Part shown: piece by piece, positions 2,099 to 39,558 of the stretch
Numbering within the stretch: position 1 is the first letter of the stretch
Layout of the letters: each line of letters opens with the position of its first letter
DNA from: Gemmatimonadota bacterium
Lineage (GTDB): Bacteria > Gemmatimonadota > Gemmatimonadetes > Gemmatimonadales > Gemmatimonadaceae
Length of the DNA: 52,302 nt
NCBI GenBank assembly: GCA_016218305.1
Contig: JACREJ010000021.1
Location: 1 to 52,302, forward strand
Reading direction: 5' to 3'
Position numbers and translations under genes: made by a program
The notes under the pieces: generated by a model
What the model was told of the DNA's origin: nothing
The model's database searches: none
Seen by the model: the letters and a program-made list of their open reading frames with translations, nothing else

Positions 2099-2116
2099 CT
2101 GATACCACGAAGATCG

Positions 2117-2223
2117 AAGGGCGCGACGGGGCGCGAAGAGGGGCAACGAATTGGGGGGACTGCAGATCGTACGCAGTCCCCCCAAGTTCTTCACTTCGTG
2201 CCCCTTCGCGCCCTTCGCCCTTA
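2117..2223. terminator. Bidirectional terminator made of a word-repeat palindrome
   Basis: The convergent gap between the M28 peptidase and apt is filled by a long imperfect inverted repeat. The core is a perfect 13-bp stem, TTGGGGGGACTGC (2151-2163) with GCAGTCCCCCCAA (2173-2185), around a 9-nt loop. Outside it the arms continue as reiterated words: GGGCGCGA and GGGGCGCGAAG on the left, CCCTTCGCG and CCCTTCGCCC on the right. Either strand can form the hairpin, which suits termination of both converging genes. There is no long T-run. The arms mismatch only by small insertions of one word unit. Confidence 0.7.
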
Positions 2224-2240
2224 GCGGTGGACGTTCCCGC

Positions 2241-10808: not shown

Positions 10809-11981
10809 CTACAGGGGCAGCGTTTCCGCCGCGCGCCGCGCCCGCTCGCCCACCTCGGGGGCAGGGCGGCCAAGGGTGCGCGCCGCCGCCTGCACGTCGT
10901 CCCATTCCGGCTTCACCCGCGTCGTACCGTCAGGGAGCGTGACCTCCTTGAGGCGGATCACCTGCCCTTCCACGGTGACGGTGATCTCACGGCGCGGCAG
11001 TGCCCGCCGGCTCACGAGCAAGCGGCGCACCCCGATGGAGGAACTCTCGGTCAGCAGCAGCGTCTCCAGTCGATCGGCGTCAGCGAGCGCGCAGAGCACC
11101 TCGACGCGCACGCCGGGCCGTCCCTTCTTCATCAGCGTCTGGACCAGCGTGACGTCGAGTGCGCCCGCGGCGCGCAGGGCGTCCGCCGCGCCGGCCACGA
11201 ACTCGCCGCCGAGGTCGTCGATGTCCGCCGCCAACAGGGCGAGCGTCTCCGCCGAGGCCGCGCCCTCCGCATCGGCCAGGACGATGCGCAGCGCGTTGGC
11301 TCGCCCCGCGGGATCGCGCGAACCGGCGCCGTAACCCGTTGCGACCGGCGTATACGCGACGGGCGGCGCTCCCTTCGAGAGCACACGCACCAGCACCGCG
11401 CCGGTGGGCGTCGTCAACTCGCCGGCCCCCTCCGGGCCGGGTCGCACGGCGATACCCTCGAGCAGGCGAATCGTCGCCGGGGCCGGCACCGCCATCCGTC
11501 CATGCGCTGCGTCCACGAAACCGTCACCGAGCGTCACCGGCGTGTTGTAGACCGCATCGACGCCGAGCTTCTGAAGTCCCCACACTGCGCCAACCACGTC
11601 GAGGATGGCGTCCACCGCGCCGACCTCGTGCAGGTGCACCTTCTCGCGGGTCGTGCCGTGGATGGAGGCCTCGACGTCGGTAAGCTGCGTGAACGCCTCC
11701 ATCGCCGCACGCTTCACGACGTCCGGCGCGGACGAGCCCTCGACGATGGCGGCGATGTGCTTCAGGTGGCGGCCATGCGGCTGCGGCGGAATGTCGAAGT
11801 CCACCTTGCGGCAGGCAATCTCGCCGCGCTTCACGTCGCTGATGCGTACGCTCACGCCCTCCAGCCCCAGCGCAGCCGGCAGGGCGCGCAGCCACTCAGG
11901 ATCGAGGCCCAGGTCGAGCAGGGCGCCGAGCGTCATGTCGCCCGAGATGCCATGGGCGGGGTCGAGGATGGCAATGCGCAT
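10809..11981 (-). CDS. larC: Nickel-pincer cofactor biosynthesis protein LarC
   Basis: This 390-residue protein starts MRIAILDPAHGISGDMTLGA, matching LarC, the CTP-dependent cyclometallase that inserts nickel into the pincer nucleotide cofactor of lactate racemase and related enzymes. Histidine-rich HGRHLKH (about 69-75) and EKVHLHEVGAVDAILD (about 113-128) are conserved. In Lactobacillus the gene is split and joined by a frameshift; here it is one continuous frame. No larA, larB or larE lies in the window, so the client enzyme is encoded elsewhere or unknown. It is an isolated transcription unit between two non-coding gaps. Confidence 0.92.
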   Translation of the reverse strand: MRIAILDPAHGISGDMTLGALLDLGLDPEWLRALPAALGLEGVSVRISDVKRGEIACRKVDFDIPPQPHGRHLKHIAAIVEGSSAPDVVKRAAMEAFTQLTDVEASIHGTTREKVHLHEVGAVDAILDVVGAVWGLQKLGVDAVYNTPVTLGDGFVDAAHGRMAVPAPATIRLLEGIAVRPGPEGAGELTTPTGAVLVRVLSKGAPPVAYTPVATGYGAGSRDPAGRANALRIVLADAEGAASAETLALLAADIDDLGGEFVAGAADALRAAGALDVTLVQTLMKKGRPGVRVEVLCALADADRLETLLLTESSSIGVRRLLVSRRALPRREITVTVEGQVIRLKEVTLPDGTTRVKPEWDDVQAAARTLGRPAPEVGERARRAAETLPL

Positions 11982-12000
11982 GCGCTAATATCGGTGCGTG

Positions 12001-12178
12001 ACGATGGCGGCGGGAGGTGGATTGGGGATTGGGAGCTCGGATTTGGATTGCGATTGGGATAGCGATCTGGATGGCGATGGGGATGGGTGATCGCAATCGC
12101 CGATCCCAATCACAAACCCCCATCGCCAATCACGATCGGGAATCCCAATCCGAGCTCCCAATCCCAATTCGTCGGTTC
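12001..12178. repeat. Word-repeat palindrome filling the larC-thrC gap
   Basis: Nearly the whole 197-nt gap is an imperfect palindrome built from variants of GATTGGGA, GATTGCGAT and GGATGGCGAT on the left arm and their complements on the right. A perfect 16-nt pair sits in the outer part: ATTGGGAGCTCGGATT (12028-12043) with AATCCGAGCTCCCAAT (12147-12162). The two arms meet near 12088. It probably terminates thrC transcription. No open reading frame or promoter was recognised in it. Confidence 0.75.
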
Positions 12179-13321
12179 TCAGAACCTGTAGCTAGCCCCC
12201 GATCCCGTATTGAACACCACGACCGTCGCATTCGGGTGCAGCCGGCCGGTCTTGACGAGCTGTGCCGTCGCGGCCAGCGCGCAGCCGCCTTCGGGCGCCG
12301 CATCGATGCCGCCGCGCGACGCAAGCGTGAACGTGCCTGCCCGGATGCCATCCTCATCCACGGCCTCGGCGTCGCCGTGGCTCTCGCGCAGTGTGCGCAG
12401 CGTCCAGCGATCGCCGAACGGCCCCGGCACGCGCAGCCCGCTCGCGTGCGTCACGGGATTCTCCCACGGCGTCGCCTTGTCCTCGCCGGCGTGGAACGCG
12501 CGCACCAGCGGCGCGCACCCCGACGCCTGCGCGATGATCATCCGCGGTTTCACGGTGTCATTCGGCAGCCATCCCCACTCGATCATCTCGCCGATCGCCT
12601 TCCAGATGCCGATGGTCCCCTCGCCGCCGCCAGTCGGATAGATGATCGCGTCGGGCAGGTCCCAGCCGAGCTGCTCGGCGACCTCGTAACCCATCGTCTT
12701 CATCCCTTCCACGCGATAGGGCTCGCGCACCGTGGCGACGTTGAAGTACCCGCTCTCCTTGCAGAACTGCATCGTCGCCTTGCCCGCGTCACCGATGTGG
12801 CCGTCCACGAGCTCGAGTTCCACGCCGTACGCGCGGATGCTGGAGAGGATGGGCGGCGGCGTCGTGCGCGGCGCATAGATGCGCGCCGGGACGCCACCGG
12901 CCGCCGCGTAGGCGGCGAGCGCGATGCCCGCGTTGCCCGCCGTCGGCACCGAAAGGCCTGGCAAGCCGAGCGCCTTGGCGCGCGTCACGGCCATCATCAA
13001 GCCGCGCGCCTTAAAGCTCGCGGTGGGGTTCTGCCCCTCGTCCTTCACCCAGAGCTTCCGCACACCGATCTCGCGCGCGAGTTCCGGCAACTCCAGCAGC
13101 GGCGTCGCGCCCTCTCCCAGGCTCACCGGGGCGTCGCCGGGCAGCATGGGAAGCGCCGCCGCGTAACGCCACAGCGACCACGCGCCGCTCACGGAGGCAC
13201 GCGAAACAGCGGCATCGTAGCGGACGCTCAGCGGTTGCGCGCATTGGGGGCAGAGCGAGGCCAGCTTGTCACCCGGCGCGGAATAGCCGCAGCCGGTGCT
13301 GCAATGCAGAGTCCAGGACAT
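12179..13321 (-). CDS. thrC: Threonine synthase
   Basis: This 380-residue PLP enzyme converts O-phosphohomoserine to threonine. An N-terminal zinc-ribbon-like segment has Cys7, Cys11, Cys24 and Cys27. The PLP lysine is in PTASFKARG and the phosphate-binding loop is GGGEGTIG. The start ATG 13321 (MSWTLHCSTGCG) is chosen because it places the ribbon at the N terminus; the frame is open for 16 more codons upstream across low-complexity sequence and lacks a good ribosome-binding site. It could also be a related PLP lyase, but the ribbon and the motif set favour ThrC. No other threonine genes are nearby. Confidence 0.88.
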   Translation of the reverse strand: MSWTLHCSTGCGYSAPGDKLASLCPQCAQPLSVRYDAAVSRASVSGAWSLWRYAAALPMLPGDAPVSLGEGATPLLELPELAREIGVRKLWVKDEGQNPTASFKARGLMMAVTRAKALGLPGLSVPTAGNAGIALAAYAAAGGVPARIYAPRTTPPPILSSIRAYGVELELVDGHIGDAGKATMQFCKESGYFNVATVREPYRVEGMKTMGYEVAEQLGWDLPDAIIYPTGGGEGTIGIWKAIGEMIEWGWLPNDTVKPRMIIAQASGCAPLVRAFHAGEDKATPWENPVTHASGLRVPGPFGDRWTLRTLRESHGDAEAVDEDGIRAGTFTLASRGGIDAAPEGGCALAATAQLVKTGRLHPNATVVVFNTGSGASYRF

Positions 13322-13329
13322 GAGAAGCA

Positions 13330-13387
13330 GAAGGTAGATGGTTGAGGGTAGATGGTGGATCCGTACCACTCATCTACGCTCCCAAAA
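13330..13387. repeat. Short word-repeat element with hairpin between uvrC and thrC
   Basis: The gap contains the word GGTAGATGG twice (13333-13341 and 13347-13355, variants). The second copy starts a stem-loop: GTAGATGGTGG (13348-13358) pairs with CCAC-T-CATCTAC (13366-13377). It probably terminates uvrC. Confidence 0.55.
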
Positions 13388-38266: not shown

Positions 38267-39379
38267 CGATCCGCTCCCGCGTTGCCCGCCACCTTGAGGT
38301 AGGCCTCGATGAACGGGTCGATGGCGCCGTCCATCACCTTCTGCACGTCCGTGATCTTCAGTTCGGTGCGATGGTCGTTGACCATCGTGTACGGCTGGAA
38401 GACGTAGCTGCGGATCTGGCTGCCGAACGTGACGTCCGCCTTGTTCGCGTCGAGCTTGGCCTTCACCGCCGCCTGCTTGTCGAGCTCCATCTGGTACAGC
38501 TTGTTCTTGAGCTGCTTCATCGCCTGCGCCTTGTTCTTCCCCTGGCTGCGCTCCTGCTGGCACGCCACCACGATGCCCGACGGGATGTGCGTCAGCCGCA
38601 CCGCCGAGCTCGTCTTGTTCACGTGCTGGCCGCCGGCGCCGCTCGCGCGGAAGACGTCCATCTTGATGTCCTCTTCGCGCACTTCGATGTTGATCTCCGT
38701 GTCCACCACCGGATAGACGAAGATCGACGCGAAGCTCGTGTGCCGCCGCGCCTGCGAGTCGAACGGCGAGATGCGCACGAGCCGGTGCACCCCCGCCTCG
38801 GGGCGCAGGAAGCCGTAGGCGTAGCTCCCCTTGATCTCGAGCACGGCACCCTTGATGCCCGCTTCCTCGCCCTCGCTCAGGTCGAGGATCTCCACTGCGT
38901 AGCCGCGGCGCTCGGCCCAGCGCGTGTACATGCGCATGAGCATCTGCGCCCAATCCTGCGCCTCGGTGCCGCCGGCACCGGCGCTGATCTCGACCTGCGC
39001 GTCGCGGAAGTCGTCGCGCCCCTGCAGCAGCGACCGCAGCTTGAACGCCTCGACTTCCTCGACGAGCGCCGCCGTCTCGCGATCCACCTCGGCGATCATC
39101 TCCGCGTCCGGCTCGCTGGCGAGCATCTCGTCGAGCTCGAGCGCCGACTGCACGCGCCCCCACAGCTTGTCGAACGGGTCCACCCACGCCTTCAGCAGCT
39201 TCATGTCCTGCACCGCGGCCTGGGCGCGCTCGGGCGCGTCCCAGAACCCCGGGGCAGTCATCTCCGTCTCGAGTGCCGCGAGCCGAGCCCGCTTGCCCTC
39301 GAGGTCAAAGGAACCTCCGCAGCTCGGTGAGTCGTGACTCATCCAGACGCAGGGTCCTGCTGCGATCGCTTTCTGCCAT
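38263..39379 (-). CDS. prfB: Peptide chain release factor 2, expressed by programmed +1 frameshift
   Basis: RF2 terminates translation at UGA and UAA. The body starts at DLEGKRARL and contains the SPF tripeptide (VRISPFDSQARRHTS) and the GGQ loop (SGAGGQHVNKTSS). The first 24 codons from ATG 39379 (MAESDRSRTLRLDESRLTEL, then RRFL) end at an in-frame TGA at 39305-39307. The frame then shifts +1 to GAC at 39304-39306 and continues for 347 residues, 371 in total, the usual RF2 length. A continuous ORF that starts further upstream in the shifted frame is probably an artefact. lysS follows with an ATGA overlap. Confidence 0.95.
39304..39318 (-). promoter_or_regulatory. Programmed +1 frameshift site of prfB
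   Basis: The minus strand reads GGAGG-TTC-CTT-TGA-C. GGAGG (39314-39318) acts as an internal Shine-Dalgarno-like stimulator three nt before the slippery CTT (39308-39310) and the TGA stop, the same geometry as the classic E. coli prfB site. Scarcity of RF2 should slow termination at TGA and promote the shift, giving autoregulation. Confidence 0.92.
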
Positions 39380-39445
39380 GCTGTGGGGGAGCGTAGTGAG
39401 GGAGTGACCAGAGGGTGCCGATCTGTGAAAGCTAATCGGCTAGCA

Positions 39446-39558
39446 GACAAACAACAGAGAGACCACAGAGAGAAAACAGAGAGACAACAGAGTCCCCACC
39501 CTCGGGAGTACTGTTGTCTCTCTGTTGTTTCTCTGTTGTCTCTCTGTTGTCTCTCTTA
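39446..39558. repeat. Large word-repeat palindrome between the zinc-ribbon gene and prfB
   Basis: Left arm 39446-39492 reiterates ACAACAGAGAG and near variants. Right arm 39511-39558 reiterates CTCTCTGTTGT. The arms are nearly perfect complements over about 45 nt and flank an 18-nt loop. The right end includes the TAA stop of the zinc-ribbon gene (39556-39558). It should act as a terminator. The rest of the gap (39380-39445) shows nothing clear, and no promoter for prfB was identified. Confidence 0.85.

Follow-up and report, generated by a model that had tools for sequence, protein, structure and literature searches.

The thrC-larC palindrome of a Gemmatimonas-like bacterium as a two-armed member of a dispersed family of gene-edge word arrays

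The gap between the threonine synthase gene thrC and larC in a Gemmatimonas-like bacterium contains a long palindrome, which raises the question of whether its two arms are kept complementary to each other or owe their match to something outside of the locus. The window, that is, the whole stretch of DNA that was analyzed, spans 52,302 nt and belongs to a genome of 2.0 Mb that is 92% complete (G000). Both genes lie on the - strand and leave a gap of 197 nt (11982-12178). The palindrome is imperfect and takes up 151 nt of it (12020-12170), with 38 nt on the larC side and 8 nt on the thrC side remaining outside; the initial annotation, whose neighbor names larC and thrC agree with the profile matches (Table 1), had described it as 178 nt long and as filling the whole gap. 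The best stem across the palindrome pairs 57 of 75 columns. Its outer part is a 30-nt inverted repeat with 90% complementarity (12020-12049/12141-12170), and the pairs inside are weaker, as had been noted. A perfect outer pair is present as well; judged from the sequence, its longest run, GGGATTGGGAGCTCGGATT, measures 19 nt (12025-12043/12147-12165) and not the 16 nt first given. Single-strand folding of 11980-12200 yields z values of -5.31 as DNA and -5.01 as RNA, equaled by none of 200 shuffles, so the palindrome exceeds chance. Each arm consists of a series of GAT-words, 6-7 nt long, with the gene-side head GATTGGGAGCTCGGATT, and the left arm runs in a hexamer phase of five GATNNN units at 12040-12084. 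An Rfam scan of the window returned rRNAs only and no family over the palindrome. An intrinsic terminator, defined as a GC hairpin followed by a T-run, was found at 0 sites in 11700-12500, and no sigma-70-like promoter was found near the palindrome.

Table 1. Coordinates, strands, and supporting matches of the features in the window
Feature	Position	Strand	Basis
larC, downstream neighbor	10809..11981	-	NCBIfam LarC1/LarC2, Pfam Ni_insertion
Left arm, G-word array (GAT-words of 6-7 nt), from larC side inward	12020..12091	+	
Left-arm box GATTGGGAGCTCGGAT	12027..12042	+	1 of 50 G000 matches to the loose box pattern
Turn separating the arms	12092..12095	.	
Right arm, G-word array on the - strand (C-words on +), from thrC stop inward	12096..12170	-	
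Right-arm box	12148..12163	-	Match to the loose box pattern
thrC (threonine synthase), upstream neighbor	12179..13369	-	NCBIfam PRK08197 above cut-off
Two-armed array, vocabulary ACAACAGAGAG (11 nt)	gap 39262..39555	.	Stem scan, orthologous gaps
Palindrome of third vocabulary CGAAGGGCGCGAAG (CGAAGG-words), convergent genes	gap 2099..2240	.	

The palindrome belongs, as a two-armed element, to a vertically inherited family of word arrays that is dispersed over the genome, lies at gene edges, and always points inward. The family occupies 34 places in about 0.49 Mb of G000, a nonrandom sample that was drawn from contigs with earlier hits showing sufficient length (the G006 stretches C1-C10 are random). 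Each array begins with the outer box GATTGGGAGCTCGGATT and continues inward with degenerate GAT-words. Thirty-three places can be printed as gaps, one of which lies inside a predicted gene; genes were called by a small codon-usage script and not by a standard gene finder, and starts can be wrong, as was one by a likely selD. The core 13-mer GGGAGCTCGGATT occurs in 42 copies in G000, the reversed pattern in none. It can be differentiated between two-armed, one-armed, and hybrid layouts, the last having a GAT arm opposite an arm of another vocabulary, for example ACAACAGAGAG (C102 at ~1.4 kb, C20 at ~9.3 kb). A compact central hairpin is not a defining part, being found in 8/33 array gaps and 13/73 other gaps; canonical hairpin-plus-T-run sites instead adjoin some arrays, as judged by eye. 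Averaged over 33 arms of G000, the information content of successive 10-nt blocks starts at 1.54 and 1.91 bits in the box region, which is partly by construction because arms were selected by a loose box pattern, and falls inward through 1.23, 0.97, 0.68, and 0.45 to 0.40 bits. The outer-to-inner decay that had been read as a record of repeated unit gain on both arms of the palindrome is therefore real, but it is a property of the genome-wide family and not a private history of this element. Gain within single arms is visible as tandem 12-13-mers (C114 at ~12.4 kb, C87 at ~2.75 kb, C28 at ~20.4 kb), whereas paired gain finds no support, as the arms are uncoupled (see below). The inner words go with the box in aligned arms and do not behave as an independent insertion.

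The box end lies at the nearer gene edge, with the edge on the arm's 5′ side whatever the direction of the ORF, in 74 of 78 arms, and an outward-pointing order of arms was seen in 0/34 gaps. Within 120 nt of an edge, GAT arms are found at 42 stops and 37 starts. In the four species that have more than two arms, median distances are 8-14 nt past stops and 19-28 nt ahead of starts. Some GAT arms genuinely lie between divergent genes (M50 peptidase/ribosomal S20; ABC transporter/UvrA). Arms of a second vocabulary, ACAACAG, favor stops over starts (23 versus 7, p 0.005). Stems of at least 20 are present in 10/30 convergent, 26/193 co-directional, and 5/51 divergent gaps (divergent versus convergent, p 0.016).

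The strong predicted fold of the thrC-larC gap, the higher share of stems in convergent gaps, and the retention of the hairpin at this gap in five species despite different words would all suit an RNA hairpin that is maintained locally, either as a bidirectional terminator or as a stabilizer of mRNA 3′ ends, with arms that compensate each other. Such arms should be better partners for each other than for strangers. In the 18 two-armed GAT elements of G000, which leave out five one-armed or hybrid elements of the 23 initially picked, arms paired with their own counterpart at 31.4 and with arms of other gaps at 31.8 (permutation p 0.64), and the result is the same for all 23 (26.6 versus 26.8, p 0.56), so coupled arms were rejected. 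The inner parts alone (18.2 versus 18.0, p 0.40) and eight ACAACAG elements (41.1 versus 40.3, p 0.26) behave alike, and in the element of the window the own right arm ranks 11th of 18. Arm-specific covariation, the mark of a compensated hairpin or terminator, was not found among the 18 elements. Pairing in a transcript would additionally favor G-U over A-C mismatches, but their numbers do not differ significantly in 54 co-directional elements (146 versus 125, p 0.22), nor in convergent (43 versus 38) or divergent gaps (31 versus 19). Selection on RNA pairing was rejected on this ground. One-armed arrays, moreover, persist across species. The lack of preference for the own arm counts strongly, and a locally maintained RNA hairpin is improbable. 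When five species are compared at the thrC-larC gap, by contrast, own arms pair better than arms taken across species (29.6 versus 20.5, the best of 120 arrangements), with the own arm as top partner in 3/5 rows only. As own arms fit no better than those of other gaps but better than those of other species, complementarity is a property of the vocabulary of the genome and not of the locus. The palindrome is self-complementary because both arms are written in one genome-wide dialect in opposite directions, and not through local upkeep of pairing.

The family evolves in concert: the layout persists at a locus while the words shift across the genome. All six GAT gaps of G000 that could be compared with an orthologous gap of G001 have GAT arms in G001 too and share their layout (three two-armed, two one-armed, and one hybrid whose partner vocabulary is also shared), with layouts across species assigned by eye. 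At the L104 locus both arms are present in 7/9 readable species and the start-side arm alone in two, and the gap before the likely selD has a single arm in all seven species that have the gene, least clearly in G003. The ACAACAG gaps keep their words in 3/4 comparisons. GAT arms occupy the thrC-larC gap in only 5/10 species, which weakens the case for vertical inheritance. In a test of 28 arms at five loci with G000 excluded, arms of the same species at other loci scored 22.9, arms of the same locus in other species 20.3, and arms sharing neither 18.5 (p 0.0002). Paralogues are thus closer than orthologues, as in concertedly evolving repeats. This test omitted cases in which GAT arms could not be recognized or the orthologue was missing: the thrC gap of G002, G003, G007, G008, and G010, L161 of G003, G005, G007, and G010 (with no hit in G009), L169 upstream in G003, and others that lacked the gene or were too short. 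Trimming was crude for some of the arms. A smaller comparison of paralogues and orthologues with six arms of G000 and G001 is clear solely on the G000 side, where the picking of arms by their box biases it, and this weakens the evidence for concert.

The words themselves differ between species. The 13-mer core of G000 has 0 occurrences in each of 10 congeners, and the free dinucleotide of the loose box is GC in 42/50 sites of G000, AT in 21/22 of G007 and 11/12 of G001, and TT in 11/13 of G005; the remaining congeners have 0-4 sites each. A simple version of the check proposed in the initial annotation, that outer pairs should be the more conserved ones across genomes, therefore fails, as the box itself is rewritten. 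The inner 50 nt had no role in the selection of arms, and they too group by species, with a within-minus-between difference of 5.36 (p 0.0005) and with G001 and G007 barely distinct (p 0.04). G006 is the nearest relative of G000, with a LarC that is 94% identical, and does not have its dialect; the two are paired in the thrC tree (100/99), in which most other congeners are unresolved. A family-wide search with the pattern gave matches in 30/118 genomes, and those outside of the genus (23/110, with 1-3 sites per genome) are near chance.

Copies that are dispersed, intergenic, and species-specific and that have inverted ends recall a nonautonomous mobile element of the MITE or REP/REPIN kind, which would have terminal inverted repeats and would have entered short gaps in one burst per species. 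The six G000-G001 gaps with the same layout and different words would then require repeated insertion at the same places, and the length of the arms and their inner words vary freely. A link to a Y1 transposase was rejected: PF01797 has 0 matches in the 92% complete G000 and is present in 2/11 congeners, G006 and G010, and the four genomes with most of the boxes, G000, G001, G005, and G007, gave no match to Y1_Tnp. Mobility of this kind is accordingly a very improbable origin. The arrays share their dispersed, extragenic, inverted, and species-specific character with REP, BIME, and REPIN sequences (PMC3116915, PMC2817692, PMC12306157), and differ in the missing Y1 transposase of G000, the long arms built as word arrays, and the occupation of orthologous places by different words. 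Short scattered arrays would not be expected to change in concert in the absence of the usual REP transposase, which raises the question of what holds dozens of unlinked sites alike.

GAT-words are one vocabulary among several. When G000, G006, and G001 were scanned for long stems, the further vocabularies ACAACAGAGAG, CACGGAGG, CGCGAAGG, GGAGGAGTGG, and GGTAGA were found, all with purine-rich words to the left and pyrimidine-rich ones to the right. Gaps as a whole show the same bias: in 9/9 classes of species by orientation, the left half has the higher GC skew, significantly so in 6/8 tested. In G000, G prevails in left halves and C in right halves whether gaps are convergent, co-directional, or divergent, partly also in gaps without long stems. 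The words of the ACAACAGAGAG array of the window recur at the orthologous gap of G006, where the array is longer (stem 72), and of G001, and are absent in G008. The CGAAGG palindrome of the window is missing from the orthologous gap (0-68 nt) in G001, G005, G008, G009, and G010 and is possibly a recent gain. At some loci the vocabulary is swapped: G003 has GGTAGAC-type words at L161 and CGAGCGCA-type words at L169, G001 has AGACGGAAG in place of CGAAGG at L096:11794, and the thrC-larC gap of G012, a member of another genus, holds a palindrome of GGGACCA-type words (L014).

Searches of an open-access collection of literature gave no account of repeats of this kind from Gemmatimonadota. The closest resemblance is to the GGGNATC heptamer repeats that Rehm et al. 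2015 describe in many gaps of Xanthomonas and Nostoc (PMC4692102). Their function is given there as unknown; they form convergent, inward pairs (70 in Xcc, 75 in Xac), have the nearer ORF on their 5′ side whatever its direction, and lie on the sense strand near stops and on the antisense strand near starts. The single or paired type is usually kept between species, the repeats are scarcer between divergent ORFs, and quadruplexes are put forward and shown in vitro. The arrays share with them the G-rich gap words, the edge on the 5′ side with inward pairs at the frequencies given above, and the conservation of the single or paired type, here in 6/6 G000-G001 gaps by eye. With regard to divergent gaps, stems are found in 5/51 of them versus 10/30 convergent gaps, but also in 26/193 co-directional ones, and GAT arms are about as common at starts as at stops. 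Unlike the heptamers, the words are degenerate, measure 6-7 and about 13 nt, are headed by a nonrepetitive box, come in congener-specific dialects, and belong to several unrelated vocabularies per genome.

GGGATT words and the shared placement and polarity also invite the reading of the arrays as G-quadruplex repeats of the Xanthomonas/Nostoc type. Of the 80 arms, 60 have a two-G motif, and 12 have a three-G motif if loops as long as 12 are allowed. With loops up to 7, the three-G motif is found in 2/80 arms, 2/33 gaps of G000, and 0/5 thrC-larC elements, and the dialects of G001/G007 and of G005 have lost the G-tracts with no change of layout. Quadruplex identity was rejected because the four-G-tract motif (loops ≤7) is present in only 2/80 arms, so that 78/80 depart from the repeats described by Rehm et al. 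in this respect; of all explanations, this one has the slightest chance of being right. The arrays are a variant of the gene-edge repeats of PMC4692102, but do not belong to them by the quadruplex criterion. The rule of placement and polarity, seen before in two distant groups, is now seen in a third without the quadruplex motif, which makes quadruplexes unlikely as the common reason for it.

For the replacement of words under a kept hairpin, the nearest precedent was described by Kaasalainen et al. 2015 (PMC4476775) in P6b of the tRNA-Leu intron of Nostoc, where heptanucleotide stems gain and lose units on one or both sides. These hairpins, too, are built of words, and one class of word gives way to another under an unchanged structure. 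They occupy one intron locus, in contrast to a dispersed gene-edge family. The BoxC/TM-ECO repeats of E. coli, described by Holder et al. 2015 (PMC4666352) as intrastrand triplex repeats and linked by the authors to instability, are similarly purine-rich, intergenic, partly arranged in inverted pairs, and without known function. They have a single 37-nt consensus with a triplex design, and instability there stands against kept layouts here.

The explanation that best accounts for the whole, a gene-edge array family with a dialect that changes in concert, is given a probability of roughly 0.6. As a predicted function, a strand-symmetric boundary of transcription is tentatively proposed, which taken by itself is less likely than not. 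Inward polarity is fixed whatever the direction of the genes, which suggests a boundary that would act on RNA polymerase from both sides. On its way out of a gene, any RNA, whether sense or antisense, would meet G-rich words first, and RNA about to enter a gene would pass through C-rich words; RNA polymerase might be slowed or released at the arrays by sequence and not by perfect pairing. The prevalence of stems of at least 20 in convergent gaps and the preference of ACAACAG arms for stops support this role. It is weakened by GAT arms that are about as frequent at starts as at stops and also occur in divergent gaps, by the absence of a T-run terminator at thrC-larC, with hairpin-plus-T-run sites adjoining some arrays instead, and by compact hairpins that are no commoner in array gaps. 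For the genome-wide drift of the words, two causes are proposed: a common trans-acting partner that reads the sites, or inter-arm copying, may keep them alike and let the dialect drift, and the data fit either.

Copying might also suffice without any function. Arrays born by slippage could be homogenized by template switching or short-tract conversion, with polarity stemming from the copying itself or from tolerance near genes. The tandem 12-13-mers inside single arms, the like behavior of several vocabularies, and the replacement of vocabularies at some loci speak for this possibility, as do exact runs shared by arms of the same genome beyond the expectation from column frequencies (9.40 versus 7.03 in G000, 8.75 versus 7.51 in G007, and 8.55 versus 7.82 in G001). 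The excess of shared runs leans to copying, although it may also stem from register and tandem repeats. Local template switching, however, predicts the best match for the own arm, which is not observed, and an exceptionless polarity (34 gaps) together with layouts kept in 6/6 cases suggests constraint. An origin without function is somewhat unlikely, although less so than any of the rival explanations above.

A boundary role could be extended further, into the speculation that the edges of bacterial genes bear a strand-symmetric punctuation code with genome-wide words that drift as a dialect. Its reader would probably be a trans-acting partner that makes no difference between starts and stops and drifts along with the words; the RNA polymerase/Rho machinery or a DNA-binding protein could have this part. 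If this were true, the palindromes, the Xanthomonas quadruplex repeats, and the Nostoc heptamers would be dialects of one kind of boundary. The real puzzle is the shared, shifting vocabulary, of which the palindrome looks like a by-product. With loci, dialects, and layouts listed, these proposals can be tested by comparison of close species and by simple reporters.

Two array loci have further features. In G000 (L212, C114 at ~12.4 kb) and its orthologues L213-L218, the gene past the one-armed array has an in-frame TGA (…RCAG-TGA-ASKMGP…) in 7/7 species; we take this gene to be selD and the TGA to be probably a selenocysteine codon. The C-words at L212-L218 stop ~10 nt or less from the ATG, which leaves no room for a usual ribosome-binding site. 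At L164 (2278-2748, C87 of G000), a gene for a 23S rRNA-intervening-sequence protein (Pfam PF05635) lies between two GAT-array gaps.
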